Made by a program: the position numbers and the translations under genes. From contig ONHF01000001.1 of NCBI GenBank assembly GCA_900317555.1, forward strand, positions 1 through 64,000: a DNA stretch of 64,000 bases, in the 5' to 3' direction. The notes under the pieces were generated by a model, which searched no databases, had not been told where the DNA came from, and saw nothing but the letters and a program-made list of their open reading frames with translations. Shown piece by piece: positions 27,697 to 63,647 of this stretch (positions are counted from its first letter, which is position 1; each line of letters starts with the position of its first letter). The DNA comes from an uncultured Lachnospiraceae bacterium. GTDB taxonomy: Bacteria > Bacillota > Clostridia > Lachnospirales > Lachnospiraceae.

Positions 27697-27960
27697 AAAA
27701 AAGCTCTCGTCCAGCTACGTTTTCGTAGGGACAAGAGCTTGAATACTCCTGCGGTGCCACCCTGGTTGGTGCGTCAAAACACACCCGCTCATGCATACTA
27801 TCATATGCAGGAAGTTGATTACGGAGATCCGCCTCCGTCTCACCTACTGAACGTGCAGCCCAGTTCGGATTGCCCTCGGAAGCCCATTCGGAATACATTT
27901 CCTGCTGCCGTCACACTATCGGCAGCTCCCTGAAAGGAAAGCGGCATTCTTACTATTTCT
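27697..27960 (-). promoter_or_regulatory. T-box leader of trpB2
   Basis: On the minus strand the conserved antiterminator bulge AGGGTGGCACCGC (about 27751-27764) is followed by the terminator AAGCTCTTGTCC..GGACGAGAGCTT and six T (27740-27697). Stem I lies upstream (about 27960-27800). It contains several TGG triplets that could be the Trp specifier, but I could not fix the specifier loop with certainty. Confidence 0.88.
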
Positions 27961-27979
27961 TCCTCAACGGTTTAAAGCG

Positions 27980-29937: not shown

Positions 29938-30273
29938 TTACTGTGAGATCGACGCGATGAGCTCGGTGAGCTCGGCGATCGCGTTGTTTGCGTCGGTGAG
30001 CTGAGACTTGAGCGCGGCGGCCTGGATCTCCGCGTCGGTCAGATCGCGGAGGCAGAGCCACCACTTGCCGCCGTCCTGAGTAATCTGAACGAGGCTCATC
30101 TGTCCGTGCTCCTCGACGGATCCGTCGGATCCCTTGACCGTCACCTTGGAGAGCTTACCCTCGATGTCGGCCGCCTTGAGCTCGGTGCTGCTGATAAAGC
30201 TGTTCCCGTTGAGCTCGAGGCTCTTGATCTGTGTGTCATCATCCAAAACAATTGTGAATGTCCTTTTCGCCAT
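29938..30273 (-). CDS. Phage hypothetical protein directly after the DGR reverse transcriptase
   Basis: The 111-residue protein begins MAKRTFTIVLDDDTQIKSLELNG and ends in a coiled coil (AALKSQLTDANNAIAELTELI). GGAAGGAGG precedes the ATG. The upstream reverse transcriptase frame has no stop before this gene, so its first 133 bp lie inside that ORF. Function unknown. Confidence 0.7.
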   Translation of the reverse strand: MAKRTFTIVLDDDTQIKSLELNGNSFISSTELKAADIEGKLSKVTVKGSDGSVEEHGQMSLVQITQDGGKWWLCLRDLTDAEIQAAALKSQLTDANNAIAELTELIASISQ

Positions 30274-31442
30274 GTTGGCCTCCTTCCGAACAATTCATAA
30301 AATAGACCCGCGAGCTTATAAATCTGTCCGTGGGTCATATACTTATAGTGCCCACCGAGCCACGACTTGAAGGCGTTTTCTATCGCGGGGTACTCAAGAC
30401 GACCCGCCTCGAGGAGTCTCTTATATGCCTTGAGTTTTCTCCGCTCCCGGGTGATCGCTTTCGGATTGATCCGGCGCTCGATCCTCCCGGTCTCGGTCAG
30501 TCGGTACGACACCTGGAGGTGTCGGAACGGTTTGCTGATTTTTGTGATCCTTGTCTTTTTCACGTTTACGATGAGCCCTTGCCGGGCGGCGGTGTCTGAG
30601 AGACCCGCACGCAGCTCCTCCAGGTCGTCCCGGTCCTCGTTGATCGCGTAGGAGTCGTCGGTGTACCGGGCGTAGAGCTTTTCGCCCTGGACGATCTTCG
30701 CGTAGTTGTCCCACGGGATCGGGAACGAGATCCCGACGTTCTGAGACGGTTGCGCTCCGATGTCGACGCCCTTTGGTAGATAGCGCCGGCCGGTGAGCTC
30801 GGCGCCGGGCACGTTCGCATTGATGAGCGGGTCGACCTTCTCGGTCATGAACCTCCGGATCTCGTCCTCGGTGAACCGGGAGACGTCGACCTCGTAGGTC
30901 TTGAATATTTTCCGCAAGAGCCGGATCGTGTAGGCCACGGTCTCCGGATCGACATCGGCCTTAATGAGCAGCGTGCCTGTGTCAGCGAGGCACACCGAAT
31001 GCCGGATGTTCGCGTAATAGCCCGAGAAATCAAAGAGCTCGATCCACCCGCCGTTCGTTCCGTGCGTCGCATAATAGCGGCGGAGATGCTCGACGAGGCG
31101 TCGGCGTTCAAAGTCGACGCCCTTGCCCTTTTGGCTTGCCGAGTTGTCAAAGATGAGAAACTTAGCAGCCGCGGGCGTTAGGACGTCATCGCATAAAACG
31201 TGGTAGAGACTTTTGTCCCTCATTACGTTGCTCGATATGTACCGGGCATGGCCTCGTTCACTGATGAGGAACTTGTGCCCGGTTTGTGGCTCGTAGGTTC
31301 CTTTCTCAAGGTCGTCCGCGAGTCGTGCTGTTTCCAGTAATTGATTGCAGCGGTAGCGCTGAGTCGTCTGCTTGAACTTGCTCCCGCGCATCGCCTTTGT
31401 GCCGCCCTCATAGAGGGCATTCATGTCAAAAAATACAATCAT
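30141..31442 (-). CDS. DGR reverse transcriptase
   Basis: It copies the template RNA with errors at adenines and directs the cDNA into the variable repeats. The catalytic palm is visible as ELFDFSGYYANIRHS, the DGR-type motif VDIGAQPSQNVGISFP (SQ where group II introns have QG), and the active site LYARYTDDSYAIN. A C-terminal thumb follows (KPFRHLQVSYRLTETG, NPKAITRERRKLKAYKR). ATG 31442 gives about 433 residues; 31424 and 31391 are alternatives, the last with a GAGGGCGG site. Recognisable RT sequence ends near 30300. The last 44 codons overlap the next gene and look like readthrough. Confidence 0.93.
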   Translation of the reverse strand: MIVFFDMNALYEGGTKAMRGSKFKQTTQRYRCNQLLETARLADDLEKGTYEPQTGHKFLISERGHARYISSNVMRDKSLYHVLCDDVLTPAAAKFLIFDNSASQKGKGVDFERRRLVEHLRRYYATHGTNGGWIELFDFSGYYANIRHSVCLADTGTLLIKADVDPETVAYTIRLLRKIFKTYEVDVSRFTEDEIRRFMTEKVDPLINANVPGAELTGRRYLPKGVDIGAQPSQNVGISFPIPWDNYAKIVQGEKLYARYTDDSYAINEDRDDLEELRAGLSDTAARQGLIVNVKKTRITKISKPFRHLQVSYRLTETGRIERRINPKAITRERRKLKAYKRLLEAGRLEYPAIENAFKSWLGGHYKYMTHGQIYKLAGLFYELFGRRPTWRKGHSQLFWMMTHRSRASSSTGTALSAAPSSRRPTSRVSSPR

Positions 31443-31579: not shown

Positions 31580-31674
31580 GAAATCCGGCCGGACCCCGAT
31601 GACGTTCGAGGCGTTCCAGTTGTTCGCATTGCCGTTGTTGTTGACATTGCAGAAATTCGTCGAGGACTGCACGT
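31580..31674 (-). repeat. DGR template repeat (TR)
   Basis: A 95-bp non-coding repeat between avd and the reverse transcriptase. Read as protein on the minus strand it gives FCNVNNNGNANNWNASN, with many AAC/AAT codons that expose adenines. It has 25 adenines on that strand. VR1 differs at 14 of them and VR2 at 13, and there is no difference at any other base within the aligned parts. Confidence 0.96.
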
Positions 31675-31694: not shown

Positions 31695-32219
31695 TTACGC
31701 TTTTAAGTGCGGGAGGAACCGGTTGTCCGACTGCCGGATCTTTTTAATCATTTTGTCGAGGTCGTCGATCTCGAGGACGATGCTCTTGTACCGATTTTTG
31801 TCGGCCGGGAGCTGCTCCGCGATGAACTGGAGCTCGCCTTGGAGTCGATCGCAAGCCTTGAGTGCTTCGTTCCATTCCTGACGGCGGTCGTCGTATTCAA
31901 ATTTCCAAACAGGCCAGATCTTATTCGCGCCGCGGATATGTGCTTCAATGTCGCCGGCGAGATCGTCGACGCGGTTCCGATGCCGTTCAATAAACCACGG
32001 AATGAACCCGGCGTACATTTCCCGGATCTTTGACGCGAGGATATCCTTCTCCTCGCCCTGGAGCCCTTTCGTCGCTTTCTTCACGGCCGCGTCGATATGC
32101 TTTTCACTGAGCCCGAAACTTATGAGGAGCTCCCGGCTCAGTTCTCCGCGGATCGTGATCGCCTTGTCGAGGGCCTCGAGCTTAGACCAGGCGCGTTTGC
32201 TTTTTGGTATGTCTGACAT
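31695..32219 (-). CDS. avd: Accessory variability determinant (Avd)-like protein
   Basis: The 174-residue helical protein lies between the first target gene and the TR, the classical avd position. Its C-terminal 100 residues (IRGANKIWPVWKFEYDDRRQEW, CDRLQGELQFIAEQLPADKN, IDDLDKMIKKIRQSDNRFL) resemble the four-helix Avd/S23-type family of clostridial DGRs. It is longer than the typical 110-130 residues because of an N-terminal extension. Avd binds the RT and template RNA and is needed for cDNA synthesis. GGAGGAATT precedes the ATG. Confidence 0.75.
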   Translation of the reverse strand: MSDIPKSKRAWSKLEALDKAITIRGELSRELLISFGLSEKHIDAAVKKATKGLQGEEKDILASKIREMYAGFIPWFIERHRNRVDDLAGDIEAHIRGANKIWPVWKFEYDDRRQEWNEALKACDRLQGELQFIAEQLPADKNRYKSIVLEIDDLDKMIKKIRQSDNRFLPHLKA

Positions 32220-32231
32220 AATTCCTCCACG

Positions 32232-32250
32232 GGGCGGGACAAGCCCGCCC
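32232..32250 (-). other. Hairpin/cruciform downstream of VR1
   Basis: GGGCGGG / CCCGCCC with a five-base loop (ACAAG on the plus strand), three bases past the target gene stop. The same hairpin follows VR2. In characterised DGRs a hairpin just after the VR is needed for target recognition. Confidence 0.85.
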
Positions 32251-32252
32251 GA

Positions 32253-33215
32253 TTATGCGATTAGGAAAGCCGGCCGGACCCCGACGACGTTCGAGGCGCC
32301 CCAGCAGGCCGCATGGCCGTAGGTGTTGACAAGGCAGAAATTCGGCGAGGACTGCACGTCCCTCAGCCACCAGTTTTCGCGGTTTACAATGAGATCCGGG
32401 CGCGCCTGGAAAAGCGCGATCTGAGACTTGTCGCATCCGACGTCGTAGCCATTGCCGGCCCATGCGACATGGCCGTAGACCATGGCCTGATTCATGAGGT
32501 CGATCTGTCTGTCGTACCAGGACCACCCGGAGCTTGCTCCGTTGCTGACCGCGTTCGCAAGCATATTGCGGTAGGTGAGGACGTGGGATTCGCCGAAATC
32601 GGCCTTTACTGTTGCGAGGGCCTGAGTCAGTCCGTTCGAGACCATGTTCGAGCCGTAGTAGGCCCCGGTCGTTACGTTTGTCGAGTTCATGACGTGGTTA
32701 TAAAAAGACTTGTCCGGGAAAACGAGCATGTGGTGTTTCGTGAGCTCAGTGTCTCCGCAATGGAGTCTGTAGTCTGCGTGACCGGCCCAGTACTTGTGGC
32801 CGTTGATTGTCCAGTAGCCGCCTGTGCGGACCTTGTCAAAGGTTCCGGCGGTGATGTCGGCGCTTTGCTCGGCCGTGAAAGACGTCCCGAGATCATACTC
32901 GTAGATAAAAGAGTTCGCTCGGGACGCTCCGGACGCGGTCAGCATTTTCGTGAGTGACTGGAGCGCGGCGATCGCACGGCCGTTGTCTCCGGTTACGCCC
33001 AGAACCTCGTTAATCGCGGCGATGAGCCCGGTCTTGTCGGTCGTTTTGAGCCCGGAGAGGTCGCCTGTCACGAACTTACTGAGGGCGCTTGCCTTGATCG
33101 ACTTGACCCCGTTGTCGTTATGGACGAGCAAAGTCTCAGAGCCGTCGGTCAGCGCGTCGAGCGTCGGCTCGTCGGTAAACTTCCGGCCGTTTGACACGTC
33201 AATAGTGATTGCCAT
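32253..33215 (-). CDS. DGR target protein 1: tail-associated variable protein
   Basis: The 320-residue protein starts like phage tail or fibre proteins (MAITIDVSNGRKFTDEPTLDALTDGS, then a GLIAAINEVLGV helix). It ends in a DUF6273/C-type-lectin-like domain whose last strands are the variable region (SSPNFCLVNTYGHAACW, then GVRPAFLIA). It lies directly after the tail genes and is probably displayed on the tail tip, where variation would change receptor binding. About 12 residue positions are open to DGR change. A hairpin separates it from the tail gene upstream. Confidence 0.9.
   Translation of the reverse strand: MAITIDVSNGRKFTDEPTLDALTDGSETLLVHNDNGVKSIKASALSKFVTGDLSGLKTTDKTGLIAAINEVLGVTGDNGRAIAALQSLTKMLTASGASRANSFIYEYDLGTSFTAEQSADITAGTFDKVRTGGYWTINGHKYWAGHADYRLHCGDTELTKHHMLVFPDKSFYNHVMNSTNVTTGAYYGSNMVSNGLTQALATVKADFGESHVLTYRNMLANAVSNGASSGWSWYDRQIDLMNQAMVYGHVAWAGNGYDVGCDKSQIALFQARPDLIVNRENWWLRDVQSSPNFCLVNTYGHAACWGASNVVGVRPAFLIA
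32265..32359 (-). repeat. DGR variable repeat 1 (VR1)
   Basis: Aligns without gaps to the TR at 31580-31674 (offset 685). There are fourteen substitutions, all at TR adenines of the coding strand. The repeat ends four codons before the stop. Confidence 0.96.
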
Positions 33216-52725: not shown

Positions 52726-55185
52726 TCACTGCTTTATAAAGATTCTCTGCCGGCCATAGTCGGCGATATACCGCCGTTGGCCAGATCGTACCCACCCAAG
52801 CCGCATGAGCATCGCGGCGATGTCGTAGGAGTCCTTGCGTGTGATCCGCGTGGCCGGGTTCCGGAAGCACTCGCACCAGATCTCAATGACCGAGACGGTC
52901 TGACGATCCTCGGTCGCGTCGCTCTTATCCGGCAGGGCCATAAGCGCGTCAGCGTCGCCGTCAAGATATGCGATCCGGGCTTCCCGTCCCATCGTCTGCC
53001 AGTCTTTCGGGAGTTTCTGGGCGAGGAACGCATCGACAAGGCCTTCCCGTTCGTCGCTTTCAAGCGCCTCGGTCTGCTTTTCCTGGGCGATTGCCGCCGC
53101 GTCCTTAGAGAGGAGTAGCGACCGCTCCCCGAGCTCCTTGTAGCGGAAAAACATCTCCGCCCAGATCTGATCGCGCTCGGCGTCAGAGAGATCCCAGGGC
53201 TTTTTAGCCGAGTCTCCCGTGATCTCGATCGGCCAGAACCGGCGGTTCCCGGTGATGTCTTTGAGGTAGCCGTCTGCGTTGTTTACTGTGCCAAAGATGA
53301 CGCACTGTCGCGGATGTTTTTCGACGTTCCGGCCGTAGGCCGCGCGGTAGATGTCGTCCTGCCGGGAGACGAATGCTTTGATGGACTCAACGTCCATCTT
53401 CCGCATACCCTTGAGCTCGCCGATTTCGATGATCCAGTAGCCCTGTAGCTTTTCGGCCGCCGTCTTGTCTTTCATGTCCTCGAAAGTGAGGTTATCGGAA
53501 AACCAACTCCCGGCGAGCCTGGCGATAAGCGTTGATTTCCCCGTTCCAGGCGGTCCGGATAAGATGAGCATGTTGTCAAATTTGCACCCGGGCTCATAGA
53601 CTCTCCGGACCGCCGCGAGCAAAGTCTTTTCCGTCGCTTCCCGCGTGTAGACATTGTCCTCAGCTCCCAGATAGTCGATGAGGAGCGTAGCCGCCCGGGC
53701 GTTGCCGTCCCACTCAAGCCCCTCAAGATACTGCTTGACCGGGTGGAACGACCGCCCCTGTGCCTGGATGATTTTTTGATCGAGGACGTACTGTCGCGGG
53801 AATTCCGCGTAATTGCTCGCGACGTAGGTGTAGAGCTGCGCGTCGTCTGAGTCCGTCCATGATCCGGGACGTCTAGGCCACGGTACCGGGTGCTCTGGGT
53901 CGACCTTGATGTCTCCCGCGAGGAGATCAAAGGTGAGGCCTTTAAGCGCCGGATCAAGCTCAAAAACGCGGCCGCAGTTGATGACCGACTTCTCGACGAC
54001 GCCCTTGCCTGAGCGCTGGAGCTTGAGCCTTACGTCAGACGGTGTCAGTTCTTCCGTTTCACCTTCTTCGAAGTCAGACGCCTCGACACTGTGGTTTTCC
54101 TCGTCATAAAGCCTGAGCGTCTCCTCGTCTTTGAGCGCGAAGGCAGCCATTGCCTGATAACTTGGCCGCTTGTTCGGCGCTATGTCTCCGCGGACGCCGT
54201 CGTCCTCGCCGCCGAACTTATGGATCCGCACGAGGTCCCAGGCGTTGCACTCGATGCCGCCCGCCGGGTCTGTGCCGTGATTGCTGTAGGCGAACTTGCC
54301 GTCATCATAGATGACGAGACCGGCGGTCGTCGATCCGGGGATATAAGTGTAACGATCCTCGTGATCCGTCGGCGCGTAGACGTCGCCGAGGAACTTGTCA
54401 ATCGCCGCGGGCACCGTGTAGGCACGGCAGAACGCGCCTACAATGCCAGGCTTCGTCGTCGGGTCCGCCTGCTTGTCTGCGATCTTCTTGTGCGACTCCA
54501 CCTCGAGCTTTGACGTCGGCCAGAGCGAGGCGTCGTGCCACTCGCCGCGAGGGTAGCGCCTGAGTACGTCATCCGGGTCCAGGAACGGCGCGTCGACGTA
54601 ATCAAAAAAGTACGGCGCATCCTCCGCGTGGCTGGGCCAGTACATGAGCCGCGACGGCTGGAAAGTCGACGGGTCCATGTAGTCCATGCCGATATCGGTC
54701 GCAAGCATACGGGCGACAGCCTCGTACTCGTCGGCGCTCACATCCCGTGAGAGCGGGATGAGCAGCCGGAGCCTTGGCTTTTCCGGCTGGTACTTGTGCG
54801 TCGAATAGCAGGCCGACGCATAAGCTCCGTCAAGTTTTATCCCAGAGTAGAAGTCGACCGGCGCGAAGTCGAGGTCGAACGATATGATCGACCGTGTTTT
54901 AACCGTTTTCGCAGATCGGCGGCCCTCGCTCAGAGTACCGCCGACAAAGCCGCCGACGTCCTTTGCGTCGTCCTGCTCGGCCTTGCTCATGCGCATATAC
55001 TCGGCAAAGGTTTCTGGTGTCGTTGTCGGCTTCTCAAGCCGGGCAAGCAGGGCCGCCCATGTGTACTGCTTGTTTTTCCAGTGCTTGTCGTATCGGTTCT
55101 TGCCCGTCGAGATCCAGAGCCGGCGGTCATGCTCGACCGGAAGCGTCGGAGGGAACGCGATGACCTTATCCTCTGTTTGCTGCAT
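52726..55185 (-). CDS. VapE-type primase-helicase
   Basis: The 819-residue protein joins an N-terminal primase-like part (SIISFDLDFAPVDFYSG, KPRLRLLIPLSRD, FQPSRLMYWPSHAED) to a VapE/SF3-like helicase. The helicase has Walker A SGPPGTGKSTLIARL, Walker B IIEIGELKGM and IFGTVNNADGYLKDITGNRRFWPI. It would start and unwind phage DNA for replication, together with the family A polymerase encoded to its right. Confidence 0.9.
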   Translation of the reverse strand: MQQTEDKVIAFPPTLPVEHDRRLWISTGKNRYDKHWKNKQYTWAALLARLEKPTTTPETFAEYMRMSKAEQDDAKDVGGFVGGTLSEGRRSAKTVKTRSIISFDLDFAPVDFYSGIKLDGAYASACYSTHKYQPEKPRLRLLIPLSRDVSADEYEAVARMLATDIGMDYMDPSTFQPSRLMYWPSHAEDAPYFFDYVDAPFLDPDDVLRRYPRGEWHDASLWPTSKLEVESHKKIADKQADPTTKPGIVGAFCRAYTVPAAIDKFLGDVYAPTDHEDRYTYIPGSTTAGLVIYDDGKFAYSNHGTDPAGGIECNAWDLVRIHKFGGEDDGVRGDIAPNKRPSYQAMAAFALKDEETLRLYDEENHSVEASDFEEGETEELTPSDVRLKLQRSGKGVVEKSVINCGRVFELDPALKGLTFDLLAGDIKVDPEHPVPWPRRPGSWTDSDDAQLYTYVASNYAEFPRQYVLDQKIIQAQGRSFHPVKQYLEGLEWDGNARAATLLIDYLGAEDNVYTREATEKTLLAAVRRVYEPGCKFDNMLILSGPPGTGKSTLIARLAGSWFSDNLTFEDMKDKTAAEKLQGYWIIEIGELKGMRKMDVESIKAFVSRQDDIYRAAYGRNVEKHPRQCVIFGTVNNADGYLKDITGNRRFWPIEITGDSAKKPWDLSDAERDQIWAEMFFRYKELGERSLLLSKDAAAIAQEKQTEALESDEREGLVDAFLAQKLPKDWQTMGREARIAYLDGDADALMALPDKSDATEDRQTVSVIEIWCECFRNPATRITRKDSYDIAAMLMRLGWVRSGQRRYIADYGRQRIFIKQ

Positions 55186-55202
55186 GAAATCCCCTCCCTC
55201 CG

Positions 55203-55556
55203 TTAAATCTCCAGCAGCCGATCGCAGTGCCAGGATGCGTCATACTCATAGATCGGGAGCCCGCGCGCATAGGCCGCGCCGAGCTCCATCTGAGCGCCTC
55301 GGGAATTCTGCCACCCGGGCAGGAGCAGGACAACGTCTGCTGAGCAGACAAGATCGAGACAGTGCTTCATGATGTCGTTGTAGCCGAGCCCGGTGCCCTC
55401 GAACATGAATCGAGGGTTGATGATATTGCAGAACCCGAGCTCGCGGAGATCTTGCTCAGCTCTCGCGAAATGCGCCGCGGAGATTGCTCCAGGGACCCCG
55501 GTTATAGGCCCGGAGATATAGATTTTTTTATTTCTTTTCGTGTTTTCACCCTCCAC
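55203..55556 (-). CDS. DUF4406 protein (nucleoside 2-deoxyribosyltransferase-like)
   Basis: The 117-residue protein has KKIYISGPITGVPGA, LVCSADVVLLLPGWQNSRGAQMELGAAYARGLPIYEY, the DUF4406 pattern related to deoxyribosyltransferases. The frame can start at GTG 55556 inside the VR2 hairpin flank; GGAGGG lies within the first codons, so the true start may be slightly later. Its likely role is in nucleotide handling during phage growth. Confidence 0.82.
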   Translation of the reverse strand: MEGENTKRNKKIYISGPITGVPGAISAAHFARAEQDLRELGFCNIINPRFMFEGTGLGYNDIMKHCLDLVCSADVVLLLPGWQNSRGAQMELGAAYARGLPIYEYDASWHCDRLLEI

Positions 55557-55557
55557 G

Positions 55558-55576
55558 GGGCGGGACGAGCCCGCCC
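55558..55576 (-). other. Hairpin/cruciform downstream of VR2
   Basis: GGGCGGG / CCCGCCC with loop ACGAG. It is identical to the hairpin at 32232-32250 except for one loop base. The flanks from CCTCCAC through the stop codon are shared too. Confidence 0.85.
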
Positions 55577-55578
55577 GA

Positions 55579-56118
55579 TTATGCGATTAGGAAAGCCGGC
55601 CGGACCCCGATGACGCTCGAGGCGTACCAGCCGTACGCAAAGCCGTTGCCGTTGACAAGGCAGAAATCCGTCGAGGACGATTTATCCTTGTTCTGAAGCC
55701 ACCCCCAATCATAATCTCCGCATCTTGAGGCTAATCGGTTGCGTCTGTCCTGCATAAGCGGCCACTGTTCATGGCCGTCCTGTTCGCACCAGCTCGGCAG
55801 CTTCTCAAAAAGTTCGCCGGCAAACGGGATCCGCAGCAGGTCGCCGTTATCAAACGGCACCATGTAGTCGCGGATGTCCGCGAAGACATTCAGCACCTCG
55901 TCGCTTTGCAGAGCTTTCCGCAGGTCGCTCTTTTCATACCCGCCCTCGTTCGTGTCATTCCAGTTCATCGGGAAGGCCTTGTCGAGGTACTGATCGAGGA
56001 AGAATAGCGCGCCCTTTGGCGTGATCTCCTGGCACGTCGCCGTGTAATGATCGACGTGGATCCGGTCGCCAACTTTGATGAATGGTGTCTCAATTTCTGT
56101 CATTCTCTCGATTTTCAT
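55579..56118 (-). CDS. DGR target protein 2: DUF6273-like variable protein in the replication module
   Basis: ATG 56118 follows AAGGAG; the longer frame is antisense to the polymerase end. The 179-residue protein has no tail-like N-terminus or signal peptide. It shows the DUF6273-like fold (IKVGDRIHVDHYTATCQEI, KSDLRKALQSDEVLNVF, RRNRLASRCGDYDWGW) and ends with the variable region (FCLVNGNGFAYGWYASS). The last ten residues are the same as in target 1. It lies between the DNA polymerase and DUF4406 genes, so it is probably made early and acts in the cell rather than on the virion. Confidence 0.88.
   Translation of the reverse strand: MKIERMTEIETPFIKVGDRIHVDHYTATCQEITPKGALFFLDQYLDKAFPMNWNDTNEGGYEKSDLRKALQSDEVLNVFADIRDYMVPFDNGDLLRIPFAGELFEKLPSWCEQDGHEQWPLMQDRRNRLASRCGDYDWGWLQNKDKSSSTDFCLVNGNGFAYGWYASSVIGVRPAFLIA
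55591..55678 (-). repeat. DGR variable repeat 2 (VR2), 24 kb from the TR
   Basis: Aligns without gaps to TR 31580-31667 (offset 24011). There are thirteen substitutions, all at TR adenines of the coding strand. Three of them are shared with VR1 (TR positions 31584, 31647 and 31648). Confidence 0.95.
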
Positions 56119-56129
56119 TTTTTCGCTCC

Positions 56130-58286
56130 TTAGTCTTTTTGGTAGTAGTCGCAGGCGTAGGTTCCACCCTTGAGCGGGAGACCCGGCGCCCAGTCGATCG
56201 GCTCGGCCATGAGCCCGTCGATCTTGGCAAACGCGGCCTCGTCGGCTCGTGGCACGTCGATGATCATCTCGTCGTGGATATGGGCAACGACGTGATAGCC
56301 CATTGCCTCGACCTTTATCATTTTTTCTGCCAGGCAATCCCTCGCGGTCGCCTGGACGATATTTTCTGTGAGCTTGCCGCCGTAGGTCCGGATCGGCGCC
56401 CAGGTGTGTGCTGTATCTGTGCCCCAGTACTCGACCTCTTTGCCATAGTTGCCGTCTTGGAGCGCCGGCCACGGGTAAGCGATCGACCGACCGCTGGGAA
56501 GCCGGACGAACATAAACCGCCGGCCCTCAATTTTGTCCATTGAGAACTCGATTGCGATCGGCTTACCGTCCACGGTCCGCTTGTGGTAGCGCCCGTCCTC
56601 GCCGATCTCCTCGACGTAGGCGTAAGACGGACGGCTCGTCTCGATCGTGGTCTGCGCGCACCGCTCGAAGAGCTTCCAGAGGCGCGTGATCCTGGGCGAT
56701 CTTTCCCGCCACTTTGAAACGATGTCCGGCATGTCTTCCTCCGAGATCGTGTGCGTCGTATCCATGGTCTTCATCGCGCCGACGCCTCCGCCGTAGCCGA
56801 GCGCCAGCTCTGCGACCTTGCCGCGCTGCCGAAGATGCCCGTTGACGCCATGCTTTACCACCGGGACCCCGAACATCTGCGATGCTGACGCGCAGTAGAT
56901 GTCTCCGCCGTTCCGGAATGTGTCAAGTCTCCATTGCTCACCGCCGAGCCACGCAATGACACGCGCCTCGATCGCAGAGAAGTCCGTCACGATAAAATGG
57001 CAGCCCTCCGAGGGGATAAACGCCGTCCGCACGAGCTCGCTGAAAACCTGCGCCGGCTCTCCGTACATAAGCTCGAGGGTCTCAAAGTCCCGATCCGCGA
57101 CGGTCTGCCGCGCAAGATCGAGATCCGGGATGTGATTCTGCGGGAGGTTCTGGAGCTGGACGATCCGCCCAGCCCATCTCCCGGTCCGGTTTGCCCCGTA
57201 GAACTGGAGCATCCCGCGCACCCGTCCGTCTCTGCATACGGAGTCGAGCATGGTCTGATACTTCTTTGTGCTGCTTTTTCCGAGTGCCTGCCGGAGCTGG
57301 AGCATCCGCCGCACTTTAGGCGGGTAGATGTCATCGTGTCCGGGCTTTAAGGCGTCGGCGACTGCTGCCTTGCTCATATCCGTCGATAGCCCAGGAGCGC
57401 CCTGAGACGCAAACCATCCTTTGAGCTGTGCGACACTGTTCGGGTTTTGGAGCCCGGTGATCTCCCTGGCCTCCGCCATGCACTTTTCTATTCGGGTCTT
57501 GTCGTATTCAACGATTCCCTCGACAAAGGGCACGTCGATCCGGATCCCGCGGTCGCTGATCGCCTGATCCACGGACCAGAGCTTCTGTTCTCTCGGGATC
57601 GGCCGGAACCGTCTGAGCCGTTCAAGAATCGCCTGCTCCGTGACAACATCCTGCTTGTTGTACTCGCAGAAAAGACGCCAGCGGTCCGGATCGTCTTTTG
57701 GCATATTCCGGCGGCGTCCGCCGTTCGATTTCGTCGGCGTTACGTACTTGCAGAAATATTGGATGAGCGCCTTGCCTGTTTTCAGTTTTTTCTGGTCCTC
57801 TGGAAGTCCGATCGCTTCGCCCGCGTCTTTTAAGGACCTTGGAAGTCCGAGCGTGGAGGCCAAAACCGCCGTGCACCGCCATTCGTCCGGATTGCACTCC
57901 TCGTCGTAATAGCTCCGGAGCGTTGTCCTTTCGAAGTTGGCATTGTATGCGGTTTTAATGACCGTAAGATCGCGGAGGGCCTGCAGGAACTCGTCTTCAT
58001 CGCCGTCAAGGATTTCCCCGTCTGCTTTGAGCGTTTTAAGCAAATCGTCGCGCCCGAACAGTGTCATCTGTTCGCCGGTGCCGCCCATGTCGACACCCAG
58101 AACGCCCGGCCGCTCAGCGAATCGCCGCGGCATGAACTGCTTGACGGGGCCGTCCCCGATCTTGTACGCGATTAAAATGATTTCAAAGTCCGGCGCGTCT
58201 GCGTAGGCATACGCGCCATTTTTGATGTCGGTCCCCGAAAAGGTCTCCACGTCTACGCCCATCTCAGTCGAGATCGTCATCGGCAT
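56130..58286 (-). CDS. Family A DNA polymerase
   Basis: The roughly 718-residue phage polymerase has an N-terminal 3'-5' exonuclease (GVDVETFSGTDI, YNANFERTTLRSYY, YNKQDVVTEQAIL). The polymerase domain has motif A VTDFSAIEARVIAWLGG, motif B RQRGKVAELALGYGGGVGAM and motif C VAHIHDEMIIDVP. It replicates phage DNA. GAGGAAG precedes the chosen start, and the gene overlaps the DUF2815 gene by 23 bp. Confidence 0.95.
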   Translation of the reverse strand: MPMTISTEMGVDVETFSGTDIKNGAYAYADAPDFEIILIAYKIGDGPVKQFMPRRFAERPGVLGVDMGGTGEQMTLFGRDDLLKTLKADGEILDGDEDEFLQALRDLTVIKTAYNANFERTTLRSYYDEECNPDEWRCTAVLASTLGLPRSLKDAGEAIGLPEDQKKLKTGKALIQYFCKYVTPTKSNGGRRRNMPKDDPDRWRLFCEYNKQDVVTEQAILERLRRFRPIPREQKLWSVDQAISDRGIRIDVPFVEGIVEYDKTRIEKCMAEAREITGLQNPNSVAQLKGWFASQGAPGLSTDMSKAAVADALKPGHDDIYPPKVRRMLQLRQALGKSSTKKYQTMLDSVCRDGRVRGMLQFYGANRTGRWAGRIVQLQNLPQNHIPDLDLARQTVADRDFETLELMYGEPAQVFSELVRTAFIPSEGCHFIVTDFSAIEARVIAWLGGEQWRLDTFRNGGDIYCASASQMFGVPVVKHGVNGHLRQRGKVAELALGYGGGVGAMKTMDTTHTISEEDMPDIVSKWRERSPRITRLWKLFERCAQTTIETSRPSYAYVEEIGEDGRYHKRTVDGKPIAIEFSMDKIEGRRFMFVRLPSGRSIAYPWPALQDGNYGKEVEYWGTDTAHTWAPIRTYGGKLTENIVQATARDCLAEKMIKVEAMGYHVVAHIHDEMIIDVPRADEAAFAKIDGLMAEPIDWAPGLPLKGGTYACDYYQKD

Positions 58287-58809
58287 CGTCGTCTTCCTCA
58301 AAATCGTCCGCGGTCACGTTGTTGCCTCCGCCGAGCGGATCGCCATCCTTAACCTTTTTGATCCCCTTGAGGATGGCGCCGACCCCGTTCTGGCTCGTGT
58401 TATAGGGGTAAAAAGCGACGATCGCTCGAACGTAGCACCCGGGGTAAAGCTCCTCCGGATCAATGACCTCGGCGCCGTCCTCGTCGAAAAGCTTCGGCCG
58501 GGAGCTGCTCCGCGCGCTGAAATAGTAGTTGCCGTCATAAGCTCCGGAGCTGTCGGACGACTCGCTGCCGTCGTGGATCGGCTCAGTCAGCTTTCCCGGG
58601 ATCTTTCCGCCCCATTTCTTACTCTTGCCGTCCTCTTTTGCGAGCTCTACCGCGGCCTCGAGGACCTTGAGGCTCTCCTTGTCATCGCCTGGAATAATCA
58701 GCGATGCGCTGTACTTGTCGCTTGCCTCGTCCTTTTCGAAAAGGTGCGGGTAGGAGAGTCTTACCAGTCCAGTGATGACGTCTCCGTTTTTCTTAATCTT
58801 TGCTACCAT
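58264..58809 (-). CDS. DUF2815 single-stranded-DNA-binding-like protein
   Basis: The 181-residue protein matches DUF2815 (VRLSYPHLFEKDEASDKYSASLIIPG, YDGNYYFSARSSSRPKLFDEDG, ELYPGCYVRAIVAFYPYN). The acidic tail (FEEDDDADDDLD) is like that of SSB proteins. Genes of this family are paired with DUF2800 and a family A polymerase in many phages, as here. Confidence 0.88.
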   Translation of the reverse strand: MVAKIKKNGDVITGLVRLSYPHLFEKDEASDKYSASLIIPGDDKESLKVLEAAVELAKEDGKSKKWGGKIPGKLTEPIHDGSESSDSSGAYDGNYYFSARSSSRPKLFDEDGAEVIDPEELYPGCYVRAIVAFYPYNTSQNGVGAILKGIKKVKDGDPLGGGNNVTADDFEEDDDADDDLD

Positions 58810-58812
58810 AAT

Positions 58813-59034
58813 TCAGTCCTCCTTTATATTGGCGGCCTTCAGTAAGGCCTGTTTAATGATTTCATAGGTTTTTTCAGTGAAGTCGAAACTGTGGCCGGGT
58901 CTTGTATCACCGTCCATGTCGATCCAGCCGTGCTGATATGCTTCCAGGATGACGAGCGCATCGTCTGCGGTTCCTTTTCCGGCATTGATATTTTTCGCTG
59001 CTACATCGATTTCAAATTCCATCGTCATCGTCAA
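58813..59034 (-). CDS. Small phage protein between DUF2800 and DUF2815
   Basis: The 69-73-residue protein (VAAKNINAGKGTADDALVILEAY, then FDFTEKTYEIIKQALLKAANI) overlaps the DUF2800 gene end. GGAGGA lies ahead of two possible ATGs (59034 and 59022). Function unknown. Confidence 0.7.
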   Translation of the reverse strand: MTMTMEFEIDVAAKNINAGKGTADDALVILEAYQHGWIDMDGDTRPGHSFDFTEKTYEIIKQALLKAANIKED

Positions 59035-60229
59035 AGTCCTCCGCCTTTACTGCTGAGACTATGGCCGGACGTTTATCGCTTTCCGGTGCCAGTGTCGGTG
59101 CTCCCTCGGGCTTAAACACGAGTCCGGGCTCCTCGAGCACCTCGTGGAACTCCTTTTTACCCATGAGCTGTGTCATCTTTGTCACACCGAGAAGCTTTTT
59201 CTCGTAGATGAGCGCCGGGTCATAGCCTGCCTTGACGAGCGTTGCCGCGACGATTTCTTCGCTCTTGTATTTCCGCTTGGCGACGGACTCGACGACCTTC
59301 CAGCCGGTCACGGTCTCGCCGCTCTGGGCAAGCTCGAGGGCCTCGTTTTCTAGGTCTTTTGCCCATGCCGTGTACCCCCTCGCGGCGCTTAACGCCTTGC
59401 CCATGTCCTCGCCGGACAAGACCGCGCTGTCTTTGCGCCGGCGCTCGATCATCTCCTCGAACTCGTGCATCTTTGCGGCGCGCGCCTTGCAGGACCCGGC
59501 GGCAGGGCAGAAGTGAGACTTGCACCACGGCCCGGGGTTATACTTCGGGGCATCGCCAAGAGCTCGCCTGGCCGCAGGGGCGATGACTGCCTTGCCCCAT
59601 GAGCGGAGGTCGTCGGCGGTGAGCTCCTCGGATGTCACACTGTCGAGCCTTGGCTGATAGATCACCATCTTGACCCGGTTGAAATCATAGGAGAGGTCGA
59701 AGGCCGCCATTGTGCCGTAGGTATAGAGCCGGATCTGAGGGTTCGCGACCGCGCTGATCGGGACGCCCTTGCCGTACTTGAGGTCGATAACCTCGCAGGT
59801 ATCGTTCCCGATGATGACGACGTCCGACGTCCCGAAGCCTCCCGGGACAATGTCGGAGAAGTCGACATGCTGCTCGGTCATAAGCTCGGCAGCAGGATCC
59901 TTTTTCCGGATCGCCTCGAACTCTTCCAGGACGAAATCGACATACGGCTCGAGGATGCGCTGCATATCGTCAAACGACCCGCTGAGGTCCTTGTGCACCG
60001 AGTAGAATGCATTTACCCTGTCACGTATCATGAGCTCAGTTCCGGAAACAGGTCCCAGATTATCGCGGGCTACTTTGATCATGATCTCGGCGAGTGCGTG
60101 GGCGAGGGTTCCTTCCTCCGCGGCCGGCGAGGTGGTCTCCGGGTAAAGCTCTGCCATGTGCACCGATCCGGGGCAGTTGAGCCAGAGCTCCGCGCCGGAG
60201 GCGGAGAGCCTTGCATGCTTTTTAGGCAT
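59012..60229 (-). CDS. DUF2800 protein (Cas4/RecB-like nuclease fold)
   Basis: ATG 60229 follows GGAGG by eight bases. The 405-residue protein begins HARLSASGAELWLNCPGSVHMAE. It shows restriction-like nuclease residues (GTSDVVIIGNDTCEVIDLKYGKG) and a Cys cluster (WCKSHFCPAAGSCKA) as in Cas4/AddB-type iron-sulfur nucleases. It is probably an exonuclease in phage recombination or replication. Confidence 0.9.
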   Translation of the reverse strand: MPKKHARLSASGAELWLNCPGSVHMAELYPETTSPAAEEGTLAHALAEIMIKVARDNLGPVSGTELMIRDRVNAFYSVHKDLSGSFDDMQRILEPYVDFVLEEFEAIRKKDPAAELMTEQHVDFSDIVPGGFGTSDVVIIGNDTCEVIDLKYGKGVPISAVANPQIRLYTYGTMAAFDLSYDFNRVKMVIYQPRLDSVTSEELTADDLRSWGKAVIAPAARRALGDAPKYNPGPWCKSHFCPAAGSCKARAAKMHEFEEMIERRRKDSAVLSGEDMGKALSAARGYTAWAKDLENEALELAQSGETVTGWKVVESVAKRKYKSEEIVAATLVKAGYDPALIYEKKLLGVTKMTQLMGKKEFHEVLEEPGLVFKPEGAPTLAPESDKRPAIVSAVKAEDFDDDDGI

Positions 60230-60815
60230 TGCCATCGCCTCCGATCTTGTTTGCCTCTGAGACAAACTCGGAGTACTTCTCCGGGGCCAGCGTGCTCACG
60301 TTCTCCGCGCCGAGTTTTGCAAGCAGCGCTTTCATTTCATCCCGGTAGCCTGCTTTGATCTTGGCGTGGAGTACTTTGCGGCACGCCGCGATGTCCACCG
60401 TGTCGGCTTCGACGGGCTTTGGCATGATCCCGGCGGGCTTTTCAGCACCTGCTGAAGCCTCCGGTTTTGCGCTTTCCGGGGCTTTTGCGGTCTCGGTGGA
60501 CACTTTATCGGCCGTTTCCTTTGGCGCGTCCTGCGGCTTCTCAGGAGCTTTTTCCGGGGCATTTTCTACGTATGCGCCGACTTTCTTTGCCGCTTCGATG
60601 ACTCGATCAGCGTCACCAGCCTTGACCAGGTGCTCGCCGCCCGGCCCGATCACCACATCCGGGACGTCGGCTTGGATGTCGATGTCGATGTCGCCGTCCT
60701 TCTTTCCGGTCCGGCTGAACTGCACGAACTGACTCGCGAAGCCGATAACCTTCGCGAACTGCGGGAGCTCTTTCATGAACCGCTCCGCGTCTGTAAACTC
60801 AAGTGTGATCTTCAT
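60222..60815 (-). CDS. Phage early-operon hypothetical protein
   Basis: The 197-residue protein has an N-terminal segment (KITLEFTDAERFMKELPQFAKVIGFA), a long Pro/Ala/Lys/Glu-rich linker (residues 85-135) and a C-terminal helical domain (CRKVLHAKIKAGYRDEMKALLAKLG) resembling small phage rRNA- or DNA-associated domains. It overlaps the DUF2800 gene by eight bases. Function not assigned. Confidence 0.7.
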   Translation of the reverse strand: MKITLEFTDAERFMKELPQFAKVIGFASQFVQFSRTGKKDGDIDIDIQADVPDVVIGPGGEHLVKAGDADRVIEAAKKVGAYVENAPEKAPEKPQDAPKETADKVSTETAKAPESAKPEASAGAEKPAGIMPKPVEADTVDIAACRKVLHAKIKAGYRDEMKALLAKLGAENVSTLAPEKYSEFVSEANKIGGDGNA

Positions 60816-60915
60816 GCTGTTCCTCCTTTGGTTTTTCTTCCGTCTGCTCTTGATCTGCGATGACCGCCTCGAGCAGTGCCGCGGCGAGACGTCTCAGCTC
60901 GGGGTGCCGGTCCAT
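60799..60915 (-). CDS. Small early phage protein
   Basis: A 38-codon gene with AGGTGG ahead of the ATG. The peptide has a helix (HPELRRLAAALLEAVIADQ) and a charged tail. The start overlaps the preceding stop (ATGA) and the end overlaps the next start by 17 bp. Confidence 0.55.
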   Translation of the reverse strand: MDRHPELRRLAAALLEAVIADQEQTEEKPKEEQHEDHT

Positions 60916-61112
60916 CACGACCACCTCGACGCGAAGATCTCGCAGATACCCGCGAGAAGAGCGCTGATTGCCGTGCCGCTCATCGCGATCGTGTAGGCGA
61001 GGCCCTCGCTATCGACAAAGCAGGCGAAGATCATCGCCACAAACAAACACGCGAATGTCCGTGTCTCCCAGGCATCCCTTTTCCTGCGTCTGTATCTTGA
61101 AACTCTGTTCAT
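60915..61112 (-). CDS. Small early phage membrane protein
   Basis: ATG 61112 follows AAAGGAGGATCT. The 65-residue protein has a basic start (NRVSRYRRRKRDAW) and two hydrophobic spans (FACLFVAMIFACFV and IAMSGTAISALLAGI). Unknown; such proteins may act in superinfection exclusion, but nothing shows that here. Confidence 0.65.
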   Translation of the reverse strand: MNRVSRYRRRKRDAWETRTFACLFVAMIFACFVDSEGLAYTIAMSGTAISALLAGICEIFASRWS

Positions 61113-61149
61113 AGATCCTCCTTTGTTCAAAGTTCACTAATGGTTAACT

Positions 61150-61356
61150 TCATGAGGTAAAAAAAATCATATTGACTGATACGTGAAAATACTGGGCTAT
61201 TTTCACTTTCATCTCGTCGGAAGGTACAATTTCCCCGGCTTCATACTTCCAGTACGCCTGTCGCGATACGCCGAGCGCCTGAGCGACTTCTGCCATACCA
61301 CGATCACCTCGCAGTTCTTTCATACGTCTTCCTATCTCTTGGCTAGTTGGTAACAT
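61150..61356 (-). CDS. Cro-like XRE regulator, first gene of the leftward operon
   Basis: The 68-residue protein is a single helix-turn-helix domain (IGRRMKELRGDRGMAEVAQALGVSRQAYWKYEAGEIVPSDEM). AAAGGAGG lies ahead of the start. It is divergent from the repressor gene 61512-61817 across a shared operator region, the lysis-lysogeny switch layout. Confidence 0.85.
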   Translation of the reverse strand: MLPTSQEIGRRMKELRGDRGMAEVAQALGVSRQAYWKYEAGEIVPSDEMKVKIAQYFHVSVNMIFFTS

Positions 61357-61379
61357 TTCCTTTGTTCAGTCCTCCTTTG

Positions 61380-61505
61380 CATTCTTTTTGCTTGAGATGA
61401 GTTAACTGCTTGTTAACAACATACATGGTAGCGCCGCACAATATATTTGTCAACCACCGGTTAACAAAAACTATAAAATCTGCTATAGTAGAGCCACGGG
61501 AGGTC
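61380..61505. promoter_or_regulatory. Divergent promoters and operators of the lysogeny switch
   Basis: GTTAAC palindromes occur at about 61398, 61411 and 61460. Leftward: TTGACA, 17 bases, TACCAT (61457 to about 61429 on the minus strand). Rightward: TTAACA, 17 bases, TATAGT (about 61461-61489) ahead of the repressor. GTTAAC is the probable core of the repressor operators (inference). Confidence 0.65.
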
Positions 61506-61511
61506 GAGGCG

Positions 61512-61817
61512 ATGACTACAGCACAAAGAATCAAAGACTTAAGAACAATGCACCACATGACAATGCAGGCTCTCGCCGATCAATGCAATGTATCCAGAGC
61601 TACGATCTCCATGTGGGAAGCCGGTAAAAGAGAGGTGGGCCGTGATAATCTCCAGCTTCTTGCAGATATTTTCAACGTCTCGCTGGATTACTTAACCGGC
61701 AAGTCTGATGTATCTATGCGGTTTTTGTCACCCGAAGAGCTTCAGATCATCGACACTTTTCGTAGCATGAGTGCCGATCAAAAAGCGCTTGTAAAAACAA
61801 TGTTCAAGATAAACTAG
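61512..61817 (+). CDS. XRE-family prophage repressor
   Basis: ATG 61512 is chosen because GGGAGG precedes it and the protein then starts MTTAQRIKDLRTMHHMTMQALADQCNVSRATISMWEAGKREV, a Cro/C1 helix-turn-helix. The C-terminal part (FLSPEELQIIDTFRSMSADQKALVKTMF) is a short dimerisation-type region without a LexA-like peptidase. Induction must therefore follow a route other than self-cleavage. Confidence 0.85.
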   Translation: MTTAQRIKDLRTMHHMTMQALADQCNVSRATISMWEAGKREVGRDNLQLLADIFNVSLDYLTGKSDVSMRFLSPEELQIIDTFRSMSADQKALVKTMFKIN

Positions 61818-61830
61818 GAGGAAAAAAGCT

Positions 61831-62106
61831 ATGTTTGGAAAGCAGAAAGAGACAAAAGAGGAAAAGCAGGCAAGAAAAGAGCAGGAACTCCTTGAGCGGT
61901 ACGGTCTGCAAGAACTGTCAGACCCGCAGGACGTCGCATCAGTACGTAAAATCGCCCAGGAACTGACAGGAACGGGCTTAATGGAGACCGGCATGGCGTT
62001 ATCGATGGGATCCGCGGCCGATCAGGTCAAAGTAAGCTATCTCCGCGCCCTTGTAGAGCAGAATTTTATCATCATTAGACAGTTAGACAGGATCTCAAAG
62101 AAATGA
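61831..62106 (+). CDS. Small charged phage protein between repressor and integrase
   Basis: The 91-residue protein has a Lys/Glu-rich coiled start (KQKETKEEKQARKEQELLERYGL) and a SHOCT-like helical end. AGGAGG precedes the ATG, and the stop overlaps the integrase start (ATGA). It may aid regulation or excision, which is not shown. Confidence 0.65.
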   Translation: MFGKQKETKEEKQARKEQELLERYGLQELSDPQDVASVRKIAQELTGTGLMETGMALSMGSAADQVKVSYLRALVEQNFIIIRQLDRISKK

Positions 62107-63647
62107 CCGGTGTAATCTATGCGAGGTATAGCGAGGGACCGCATCAGACCGACCAGAGCATCGAGGGACAGGTGGCCGATTGTAAAGCATACGCGGCCAA
62201 AAATGGGATAAATATCCTCGGCGTGTATGCCGATCGGCATATCTCCGGCAAAAGTGCGGCGACGCGGCCGGAGTTCCAGCGGCTGATCGACGATGCCCAG
62301 GCGGGGCGCTTTGAGTGCGTGATCGTCTGGAAAATCGACCGATTCGGACGAAACCGGCAGGACATCGCCCTTTACAAGCTCAAGCTCAAGCGTGCGGGCG
62401 TGAAGCTCTTCTATGCCGCCGAGTCAGTGCCCGAGGGCCCGGAGGGCATCATCCTCGAGAGCGTCCTCGAGGGCATCGCGGAATACTATAGCGAGGACCT
62501 GCGACAAAAGGTCATCCGGGGCCGCCGCGAGACCTTGAAAAAGGGCAAGCTCGCGGGCACGGCGCTCCCGATCGGCTACAAGCGGGTCGATGGGCGTCCT
62601 GTAATTGACGAGAGCACCGCTCCGCTGGTCCGTGAAGTTTATCGAATGTATATCGCCGGCGAGGGTGTCAAAAGTTGCATCGAGTACCTTAACGCGCACG
62701 GCGTGACCGGGAGCCGGGGCGGCAAGATCAGCCAGGCCGTCGTTTACCGTATGCTCAGGAGCAAGAGATATATCGGAATATTTGACGAGAGCGGGATCGA
62801 GCTGCGCGCGGATCCGATCATAGACGAGGCGACTTACGAGGAGGCGCAGAAGATGCACAAAGGGAGCAGGCAAAATGCCGCGGCCAAAGCGAAAGACGAG
62901 TATCTGCTGTCCTGCTGCTGTTTTTGCGGCTACTGCGGGGCAATGCTGGTCGGAGACTCTGGCACCGGGAAATCCGGCAGAACCTACCACTATTACACCT
63001 GCGGGAAAAGAAAACGGAAGGGAAGCAAGGCCTGTCAGCTAAAATCGCTGAATCGTGATTTTCTGGACGACCTTGTGATCTCTGCGACCGTCGAGGACAT
63101 GCTGACAGAGGAGACGATCAAGGCGCTCACCGATGAGGTCATGGACATCCAGGCGGAGGGGCAGAAAGAGTCGCCAGCTGTAGCGCTAAAATCTGCGCTT
63201 GACGGCAACAAGAAAAAACAGGCGAACATTGTCCGCGCGATTGAGCTTGGCAACACCCCGGACATCCTCATATCAAGGCTTCAGGAGCTTCAGAACGAGG
63301 CGACGGATCTCGAGGCAGAGATTCGCCAGGCAGAATATGAGCGGCCGACGGTCTCCCGGGAAGCGGTCGAGGGGTGGCTCCGGTCTTTCAAAATGGGCGA
63401 CAAAAAAGACCCGGCGTTCCGTAAGCGTCTCGTTGAGACGTTCGTTGCCCGGGTCGATGTCTATAAGGATAAGGCTGTAATTTATTACAACATAACAGAA
63501 AAACGGGCCGCATCCGGTGTTCGGATACGACCCGTAACGTGGGCACAGCGGGGCTCGAACCCACGACCTTCTGGTTGTGACCCAGATGCTCTCCCGGCTG
63601 AGCTATGTGCCCGTAACGAAAATTATTATACTCCTGTCCTACTTTAA
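62103..63647 (+). CDS. int: Large serine recombinase (prophage integrase)
   Basis: The 514-residue ORF has an N-terminal resolvase domain (GVIYARYSEGPHQTDQSIEGQ with catalytic Ser, ADRHISGKSAATRPEFQRL, VWKIDRFGRNRQD), a recombinase domain and a zinc ribbon (CCCFCGYCGAMLVGDSGTG with KACQ). A coiled coil and YYNITEKR at the C-terminus complete it. It integrates and excises the prophage. The last 40 codons read antisense through the terminator and tRNA-Val, so they are probably host sequence fused on by integration; the free phage gene would end differently. Confidence 0.92.
   Translation: MTGVIYARYSEGPHQTDQSIEGQVADCKAYAAKNGINILGVYADRHISGKSAATRPEFQRLIDDAQAGRFECVIVWKIDRFGRNRQDIALYKLKLKRAGVKLFYAAESVPEGPEGIILESVLEGIAEYYSEDLRQKVIRGRRETLKKGKLAGTALPIGYKRVDGRPVIDESTAPLVREVYRMYIAGEGVKSCIEYLNAHGVTGSRGGKISQAVVYRMLRSKRYIGIFDESGIELRADPIIDEATYEEAQKMHKGSRQNAAAKAKDEYLLSCCCFCGYCGAMLVGDSGTGKSGRTYHYYTCGKRKRKGSKACQLKSLNRDFLDDLVISATVEDMLTEETIKALTDEVMDIQAEGQKESPAVALKSALDGNKKKQANIVRAIELGNTPDILISRLQELQNEATDLEAEIRQAEYERPTVSREAVEGWLRSFKMGDKKDPAFRKRLVETFVARVDVYKDKAVIYYNITEKRAASGVRIRPVTWAQRGSNPRPSGCDPDALPAELCARNENYYTPVLL
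63504..63534 (-). terminator. Terminator downstream of tRNA-Val, overlapping the candidate right attachment site
   Basis: On the minus strand a 13-bp stem (CGGGTCGTATCCG / CGGATGCGGCCCG, two G-U pairs) with loop AACAC is followed by TTTTTCTG. GTGTTCG at 63517-63523 is also the candidate core of attR. Confidence 0.7.
63541..63612 (-). tRNA. tRNA-Val (anticodon CAC)
   Basis: Acceptor GGGCACA/TGTGCCC is perfect. Anticodon stem TCTGG/CCAGA encloses GTCACAA, giving CAC. T-arm GTGGG-TTCGAGC-CCCGC has one wobble. On the minus strand TATAAT and TTGTGG lie just upstream as a promoter. Its 3' end faces the prophage. CCA is not encoded. Confidence 0.9.

Follow-up and report, generated by a model that had tools for sequence, protein, structure and literature searches.

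Phage diversity-generating retroelements (DGRs) are usually viewed as tropism switches. The locus described here raises the question of what such an element does with a second target situated among replication genes. It belongs to a prophage in a stretch of 64,000 nucleotides (the window: positions 1 to 64,000, forward strand, of contig ONHF01000001.1, assembly GCA_900317555.1) from an uncultured Lachnospiraceae bacterium. A sequence-only reading had placed a second variable repeat (VR2) at 55591-55678, about 24 kb from the template repeat (TR), with 13 substitutions, all at TR adenines, in a 179-residue gene between the DNA polymerase and DUF4406 genes. The coordinates proved exact, the distance is 23.9 kb, all 13 substitutions fall at TR adenines, and the gene and its neighbours were verified by open reading frames (ORFs) and Pfam matches. 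Comparison of related sequences supports the view that VR2 is a true second target of the DGR, located in the replication module and rewritten repeatedly. The parts of the system are the following.

30141..31442, minus strand: DGR reverse transcriptase (RT) (phrog_1423 'Reverse transcriptase', E 4.7e-38; RVT_1, E 4.6e-6, slightly below the cut-off)
31580..31667, minus strand: TR core, 88 bases, directly upstream of the RT gene
31695..32219, minus strand: Avd-like accessory protein (phrog_3206 'Avd protein of DGR', E 1.7e-4; a weak match in the expected position)
32265..32352, minus strand: VR1, the local variable repeat (14 differences from the TR, 14 of 14 at TR adenines)
32253..33215, minus strand: local target gene, 320 residues, adjoining tail genes (weak PHROG and DUF6273 matches)
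55591..55678, minus strand: VR2, an 88-nt variable repeat (13 of 88 bases differ from the TR, 13 of 13 at TR adenines)
55579..56118, minus strand: remote DGR target gene, 179 residues, with one predicted DUF6273-like, C-type-lectin-like domain (ORF; phrog_21980; AlphaFold2)

The order on the minus strand is canonical, with the local target gene containing VR1 followed by the Avd-like gene, the TR and the RT gene. The window holds a DGR-type RT beside a TR, VRs with changes restricted to adenines, an Avd-type protein and a hairpin after the VRs, and its RT is related to those of known DGR phages. The RT start (about 31442) is estimated, as a longer ORF, to 31691, would overlap the TR. VR2 forms the end of its gene, the start of which was set at the ATG at 56118; a longer ORF begins upstream at 56472. 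The N-terminal part of the local target has weak PHROG matches to tail-fibre (E 7.1e-4) and virion (E 8.6e-4) proteins, and its C-terminus has a weak match to DUF6273.

The TR contains 23 adenines per 88 bases, and the chance that 13 of 13 mismatches fall at adenines is about 1e-9, which rules out VR2 as a chance match. Three repeat matches were found in the source genome (2.29 Mb, 87% complete), namely the TR, VR1 and VR2. VR1 and VR2 differ from each other at 14 sites, all of them TR adenines.

Homologues of the VR2 gene were found in three named phage records, two named genomes and 52 IMG/VR loci (the first 12 included), and in 4 of the 99 genomes around that of the window, counting the source genome; one of the four is weak. 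Sixteen loci were aligned to a TR. The pairwise comparison retains ten of them, with 0-5 non-A mismatches, and omits L001, L007, L008, L009 and L012 (which differ from the window TR at 6, 15, 30, 5 and 4 non-A positions) as well as Fontainebleau, which was aligned to its own TR. Among pairs of the ten close loci, identity is 86-100% at non-A sites of the VR, 17-70% at A sites and 62-97% in the gene bodies. The bodies of L010 and L013 are 97% identical with 35% identity at A sites; those of L002 and L011 are 94% identical, with 100% identity at non-A sites and 30% at A sites. About two thirds of the adenine sites differ in both pairs, and the other VR sites are 95-100% identical. The Bilifractor porci prophage has an identical TR (108 of 108 bases), a 98% identical RT and a VR2 with its own set of A-site bases. 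In the Porcincola genome (L001, aligned to the window TR) the RT and the VR2-family gene are on separate contigs. In L009 (10001-10537, on an 88-kb contig without an RT match) a non-adenine change creates a stop inside the VR, as loss of the DGR might give.

Twenty-four RT-bearing phage records were scanned for repeats differing at A only; RT searches had matched 18 and 65 records. A remote VR was found in 11 records (Fontainebleau, Shimadzu, Dulem 34, nd12, nd4, Lelie, Toutatis, MT835491, Dulem 37, Brigit and Lagaffe). None was found in the other 13, namely MT835552, MT835543, MT835569, MT835664, MT837512, Pioen, Roos and six phages from outside the gut set, BPP-1 among them. The scan covered 50,000 bases each of Pioen, Roos, Lelie, Toutatis, Dulem 37 and MT835491, 59,600 of the 60,012 bases of phiARM81mr and 39,800 of the 39,873 bases of BalMu-1; MT837512 is shorter than 8 kb, and MT835625, without a listed RT match, was left out. 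The remote targets of Dulem 37 and Lagaffe are FGE-like, not DUF6273-like, and that of Brigit has no Pfam match. The remote VR of Brigit (L088 4373-4445) lies about 41 kb from its TR, in a 207-residue gene of phrog_9958, and is not mentioned in the available passages of PMC5883640.

Of the IMG/VR contigs carrying a VR2-family gene, 22 were considered, and 15 of these have an RT match; L132 was set aside because its contig nearly duplicates that of L130. In 11 of the 14 contigs whose RT region was examined, the VR2-family locus copies the contig's own TR (0-1 non-A mismatches), alongside a local VR1. Since the A-tolerant repeat scan favours A mismatches through its scoring and filters, the pairs were rescored base-neutrally. 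In the resulting set of 24 phages (the window, Bilifractor, the 11 scanned phages and 11 IMG/VR contigs), 328 of 341 mismatches in remote VRs are at TR adenines, which make up 593 of the 2,221 TR bases (26.7%). The corresponding figure for VR1 is 336 of 346.

The sequence-only reading had named an outcome that would undermine it, namely that VR2 never varies and stems from a one-off transfer of a C-terminal segment. The 41 bases past the repeat are common to VR1 and VR2 with one difference, as might come from a copied block. However, the variation at A sites between bodies that are 94-97% identical, together with the same relation to differing TRs across 24 phages, contradicts such a transfer, and we find it barely credible. 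Another possibility is that VR2 is rewritten through recombination with VR1 and not by TR cDNA, and indeed shared sequence surrounds both VRs. Where both repeats are changed at the same A, the base is identical in 78 of 186 cases (42%) against 35% expected from the spectrum, with up to 6 of 8 in Toutatis; at this level of agreement VR2 is not simply a copy of VR1. Recombination should carry VR1 alleles over jointly, yet 58% of the co-mutated sites differ, and five window sites altered in VR1 are still A in VR2. We regard this explanation as very unlikely. The alignments show that a replication-module gene differs from the TR in an adenine-specific, repeated and largely independent way, and the same TR also serves a tail-module gene.

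Both VRs of the window are followed by a hairpin.

55558..55576, minus strand: GC hairpin after VR2, GGGCGGG-CTCGT-CCCGCCC, the expected target-site element
32232..32250, minus strand: GC hairpin after VR1, GGGCGGG-CTTGT-CCCGCCC

The 41 shared bases comprise the stop codon, the GC hairpin and GTGGAGG, which resembles a ribosome-binding site. Downstream of the TR no hairpin was seen. In BPP-1 the hairpin is reported to be required for efficient homing, its stem acting by structure and its loop by sequence, and the initiation of mutagenic homing (IMH) sequence with the hairpin is enough to direct homing into another gene (PMC3240598). GC-rich stems of at least 6 bp follow 14 of 18 remote and 16 of 18 local VRs (18 phages), against 1.8% of shuffled sequences. 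These counts exclude Brigit, Bilifractor, where the hairpin is present after both VRs, and nd4, nd12, Lelie and Toutatis, where no comparable hairpin was found within 45 bases after either VR. The stems vary among phages, often between VR1 and VR2 too, and in many the loop is CTTGT, CTCGT or a close variant. The window loop has 5 bases (CTTGT/CTCGT), whereas the published phage loop, GRNA, has 4 (PMC3240598).

The VR2 protein had been called DUF6273-like. The resemblance is present, but its score of 21.6 bits is under the Pfam gathering cut-off for DUF6273 (PF19789), 23.5, and hence only the qualified name is kept. A closer homologue, L115, is also under the cut-off (17.4 bits), which is passed by the phrog_21980 relatives Shimadzu (48.9 bits) and Dulem 34 (43.7 bits). 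The match of the window protein to phrog_21980 spans residues 1-177, nearly the whole length (E 2e-32). No NCBIfam model matches it, and a sequence-profile search of solved structures found nothing. The AlphaFold2 model built from a 38-sequence alignment has pLDDT 84 and pTM 0.83, and was used instead of one from 11 sequences (pLDDT 63). The predicted fold can be superposed on C-type-lectin-like domains, among them DGR variable proteins; in a Foldseek comparison with PDB, 1 of the 404 matches listed at E <=10 passes 0.001. The 13 residues overlapping TR adenines lie near the C-terminus, between 150 and 175. The VR2 product is predicted to be a free-standing C-type-lectin-like domain. Profile matching to PHROG found no tail-type module or N-terminus and no head attachment module, and no hydrophobic stretch was seen (maximum 19-residue mean hydropathy 1.06); the earlier statements that the protein has neither a tail-type N-terminus nor a signal peptide hold, the latter as judged by hydropathy and not by a signal-peptide program.

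The genes around VR2 form a run on one strand.

58264..58809, minus strand: ssDNA-binding protein (PF10991, E 5.2e-51)
56130..58301, minus strand: DNA polymerase A (PolA), immediately upstream of the VR2 gene with 11 bases between (PF00476, E 1.4e-23)
55203..55556, minus strand: DUF4406 protein, immediately downstream of the VR2 gene (PF14359, E 1.7e-20)
52726..55185, minus strand: VapE-type protein (PF05272, E 8.3e-78), which we take to be a primase/helicase

Helicase genes are also located downstream of the VR2 gene in this run. Within 55000-61600 the only minus-strand promoter-like sites are at 61425-61467, upstream of the run. Judging by gene order and strand, the VR2 gene may reasonably be taken to be expressed early, with the replication proteins. 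The start of the DUF4406 gene in the window prophage may be weak or shifted: it has ACG at 55539-55541, where relatives (e.g. L002, L006, L010) start the gene with ATG downstream of the same ribosome-binding-like sequence.

Related phages with VRs at the same locus, for which the earlier reading had suggested a search, do exist. In 22 of 50 loci, near-duplicates included (L120/L121, L129-L132), the VR2-family gene begins 14-44 bases after the end of a window-type polymerase A gene. The remaining 28 lack such a polymerase; many of these loci are short, others long. The VR2-family gene is flanked by a DUF5906 helicase-like protein and an ssDNA-binding protein in L135, by a D5-type protein and RtcB in L138, and by a primase domain and a cytosine methylase in L149. 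DUF6353 genes are near it in L124 and L144, an integrase (L112) or terminase genes (L117) occur within a few kb, and the neighbour in L141 gave no match. In L138, at 10794-11999, an RtcB-type RNA ligase gene follows the VR2-family gene. Among the scanned phages, the remote target is situated between methyltransferase and Erf/SSB (ssDNA-binding) genes in Shimadzu, between a methyltransferase gene and a rep gene in Dulem 34, before a 'DNA polymerase III alpha subunit' gene in nd4, upstream of a replication-protein gene in Toutatis, and near methyltransferase, helix-turn-helix and restriction-alleviation genes in Dulem 37. The neighbours in Lelie and nd12 are annotated as hypothetical, and this survey leaves out Brigit, Lagaffe and MT835491.

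The VR2 gene also changes outside the repeat. Between the window and Bilifractor, the tested proteins from the RT to 47338 are 98-100% identical, except for the product of the VR1 gene (91.6%); the identity is 90% for PolA, 89% for DUF4406, 87% for VapE and 67% for the VR2 protein. Ranked by polymerase similarity, the 25 closest pairs all have a VR2 body that is less conserved than the polymerase. The polymerases of L002 and L013 are 99.2% identical (dS 0.04) and the adjacent VR2 bodies 75.7% (dS 0.44), which we read as allele replacement by recombination. In L002, L010 and L013, VR2 bodies differ strongly beside near-identical polymerase genes. Because of such juxtaposition, the VR2 locus seems to be a hot spot of recombination in addition to serving as a DGR target.

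We consider it probable that one DGR serves two targets, one a protein of the tail module and the other an intracellular binder produced early, alongside the replication proteins. A single TR RNA would be copied by the RT with random bases at adenines, and the cDNA would replace either VR1, in the tail-module gene beside the RT, or VR2, in the replication-run gene 24 kb away. VR2 would be reachable because it has the same 3' match and hairpin as VR1. Adenine-specific difference and a common target site are what is observed in the window, and the enzymology is modelled on that of BPP-1. The VR2 protein would be made early and would most likely act in the cytoplasm as a diversified binding protein. 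Its purpose may tentatively be sought in conflict, that is, in binding and neutralising the variable defence proteins of hosts or the products of rival phages. The earlier interpretation as an early intracellular target is thus supported in part, namely as to a second, repeatedly rewritten target in the replication module.

The main rival explanation makes the VR2 protein a second adhesin, or a decoration protein, of the virion that is encoded among replication genes, so that the DGR tunes two surface proteins. Indeed, the C-type-lectin-like fold is common to known DGR variable proteins, and the authors describing nd4 and nd12 suppose that target2 (nd4_tgt2/nd12_tgt2) acts like the receptor-binding protein Mtd (PMC10743442). 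Further, the remote targets of nd4, Lelie and Brigit have a C-terminal match to phrog_10993 'Hoc-like head decoration' (six named remote targets and L138 were covered). However, this match is limited to the VR end, and the local target of MT835491 has it too. Target2 of nd12 has an N-terminal DUF3310 (E 2.5e-16), presumably a domain of early phage genes. Moreover, no tail or head module was found in the window protein, and in relatives of the window the slot is in the replication run, not in a late module. On balance, a second adhesin seems rather unlikely. It is also possible that the VR2 protein functions extracellularly once the cell has lysed, or else within the lysogen, blocking superinfection or rival phages or serving as a decoy for receptors or tail tips. 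A lectin-like binder diversified from a TR that also serves a tail-module protein would suit this role. On the other hand, the protein has no signal-like segment, the position in the replication run speaks against expression in the lysogen, and the near independence of VR1 and VR2 alleles implies no single common specificity. This role appears improbable.

Several other observations, like the supposed Mtd-like role, weigh against an early intracellular binder rewritten by the DGR. A virion role is compatible with an early gene position, and no neighbour of the VR2 gene in the window is a proven counter-defence gene. For Lelie, sequencing reads are reported to lack a variation peak at each of its two VRs, and the same is reported for CP11 and Lagaffe_CP in limited data (PMC11792537). 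Most of the close IMG/VR relatives are fragments without an RT, so that their A sites were scored by the window TR and not by their own. Seven of the 22 contigs with a VR2-family gene show no RT, and in L144, one of the 11 matching contigs, the reading frame ends before the VR. In 3 of the 14 RT-bearing contigs the VR2-family gene and the TR do not match (L113, L115 and L117, with RT regions L164, L162 and L165), which indicates that target and DGR can be uncoupled. As to the tempo of change, a gene of unknown function at 60222-60815 is below the VR2 protein in the comparison with Bilifractor (63.8%). When all 91 pairs are counted, only 55 have a VR2 body that is less well conserved than PolA, and the median dN/dS values are alike (0.29 for the VR2 body and 0.26 for PolA, 83 pairs); the excess change of the VR2 body is therefore confined to close comparisons.

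The sequence-only reading also regarded such a target as unusual. This has to be tempered, as distal second VRs in gut phages have been published (PMC11792537, PMC10743442, PMC12629997), in one report near counter-defence genes; PMC12629997 describes a second VR distal from the RT in four human-gut prophage species. The Roseburia phage Shimadzu has a comparable arrangement: one TR serves a local tail-fibre-type target and a remote 209-residue DUF6273 target (orf43) among replication and modification genes, and 15 of 15 VR2 mismatches are at TR adenines. Its RT is only 29-33% identical, and the neighbours are DNA methyltransferase, Erf recombinase and SSB, not PolA and DUF4406. Shimadzu is cited in PMC11792537 as having two diversified proteins, the second of unknown function. 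According to the same paper, Lelie, Lagaffe_CP and CP11 each have two VRs, DUF6273 occurs in both targets of Lelie and of CP11, and, when cognate genomes are compared, both VRs vary in CP11 and in Lagaffe_CP.

The Faecalibacterium phages Lelie and CP11, and nd4 and nd12 described in PMC10743442, likewise have two VRs from one TR and a small target with DUF6273 (PMC11792537, PMC10743442). Our scan recovered the remote VRs of Lelie, nd4 and nd12, and Toutatis has one as well. Unlike in the window, the VR in this group does not lie right at the gene's end, and no window-like hairpin was found after it. The small targets of nd4 and Lelie match phrog_9958, whereas those of the window, Shimadzu and Dulem 34 match phrog_21980. 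The available passages of PMC11792537 and PMC10743442 do not discuss a replication-module position of the small targets. BPP-1 (mtd) resembles the window in RT, Avd, TR, VR, A-specific change and the hairpin after the VR (PMC3240598), but in our scan it has one VR only, beside the RT, and its target is a tail-fibre protein (PMC10743442). In another Faecalibacterium phage a DUF6273 gene is next to the RT (PMC13432834); no mention of mass spectrometry was found in the available part of that paper. The available text of the Fontainebleau paper (PMC10197239) contains neither the word retroelement nor DGR. The authors of PMC8144416 state of their own pipeline that surveys confined to the RT vicinity miss remote targets. 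Full-text searches (DUF6273; second variable region and methyltransferase; remote targets; anti-defence or early genes) listed no paper with a title or abstract on a conserved DGR target in a replication run. The two-VR kind is already known; the conserved slot, the upkeep of the hairpin and the recurrence across phages are added by the present comparison.

Elsewhere in the window, the tape-measure gene contains a run of repeats with a period of about 33 nt (36678-37248), and a T-box leader on the minus strand (27724-27976; Rfam, 93.9 bits) is close to the end of the prophage genes. A large serine recombinase gene on the plus strand (62103-63647; CcrB-like, with a score far under the cut-off of that model) is adjacent to tRNA-Val (63539-63612), and the two probably form the integration module.

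That relatives of the window keep a second target in the replication run implies that diversity is selected for at some stage following entry. Remote targets are near replication or modification genes in divergent phages as well (Shimadzu, Dulem 34, nd4, Toutatis). Such an arrangement points to a second use for targeted hypermutation, which would probably take place within the infected cell. The role of a DGR target outside the tail becomes testable, with a defined protein family, defined loci and the inducible phages Fontainebleau (PMC10197239) and Shimadzu (PMC6563222). It is conceivable, though we put it forward with reserve, that gut phages of Clostridia use hypermutation twice, for adsorption through VR1 and in an intracellular arms race through VR2, by means of antibody-like cytoplasmic binders rewritten in each lineage.
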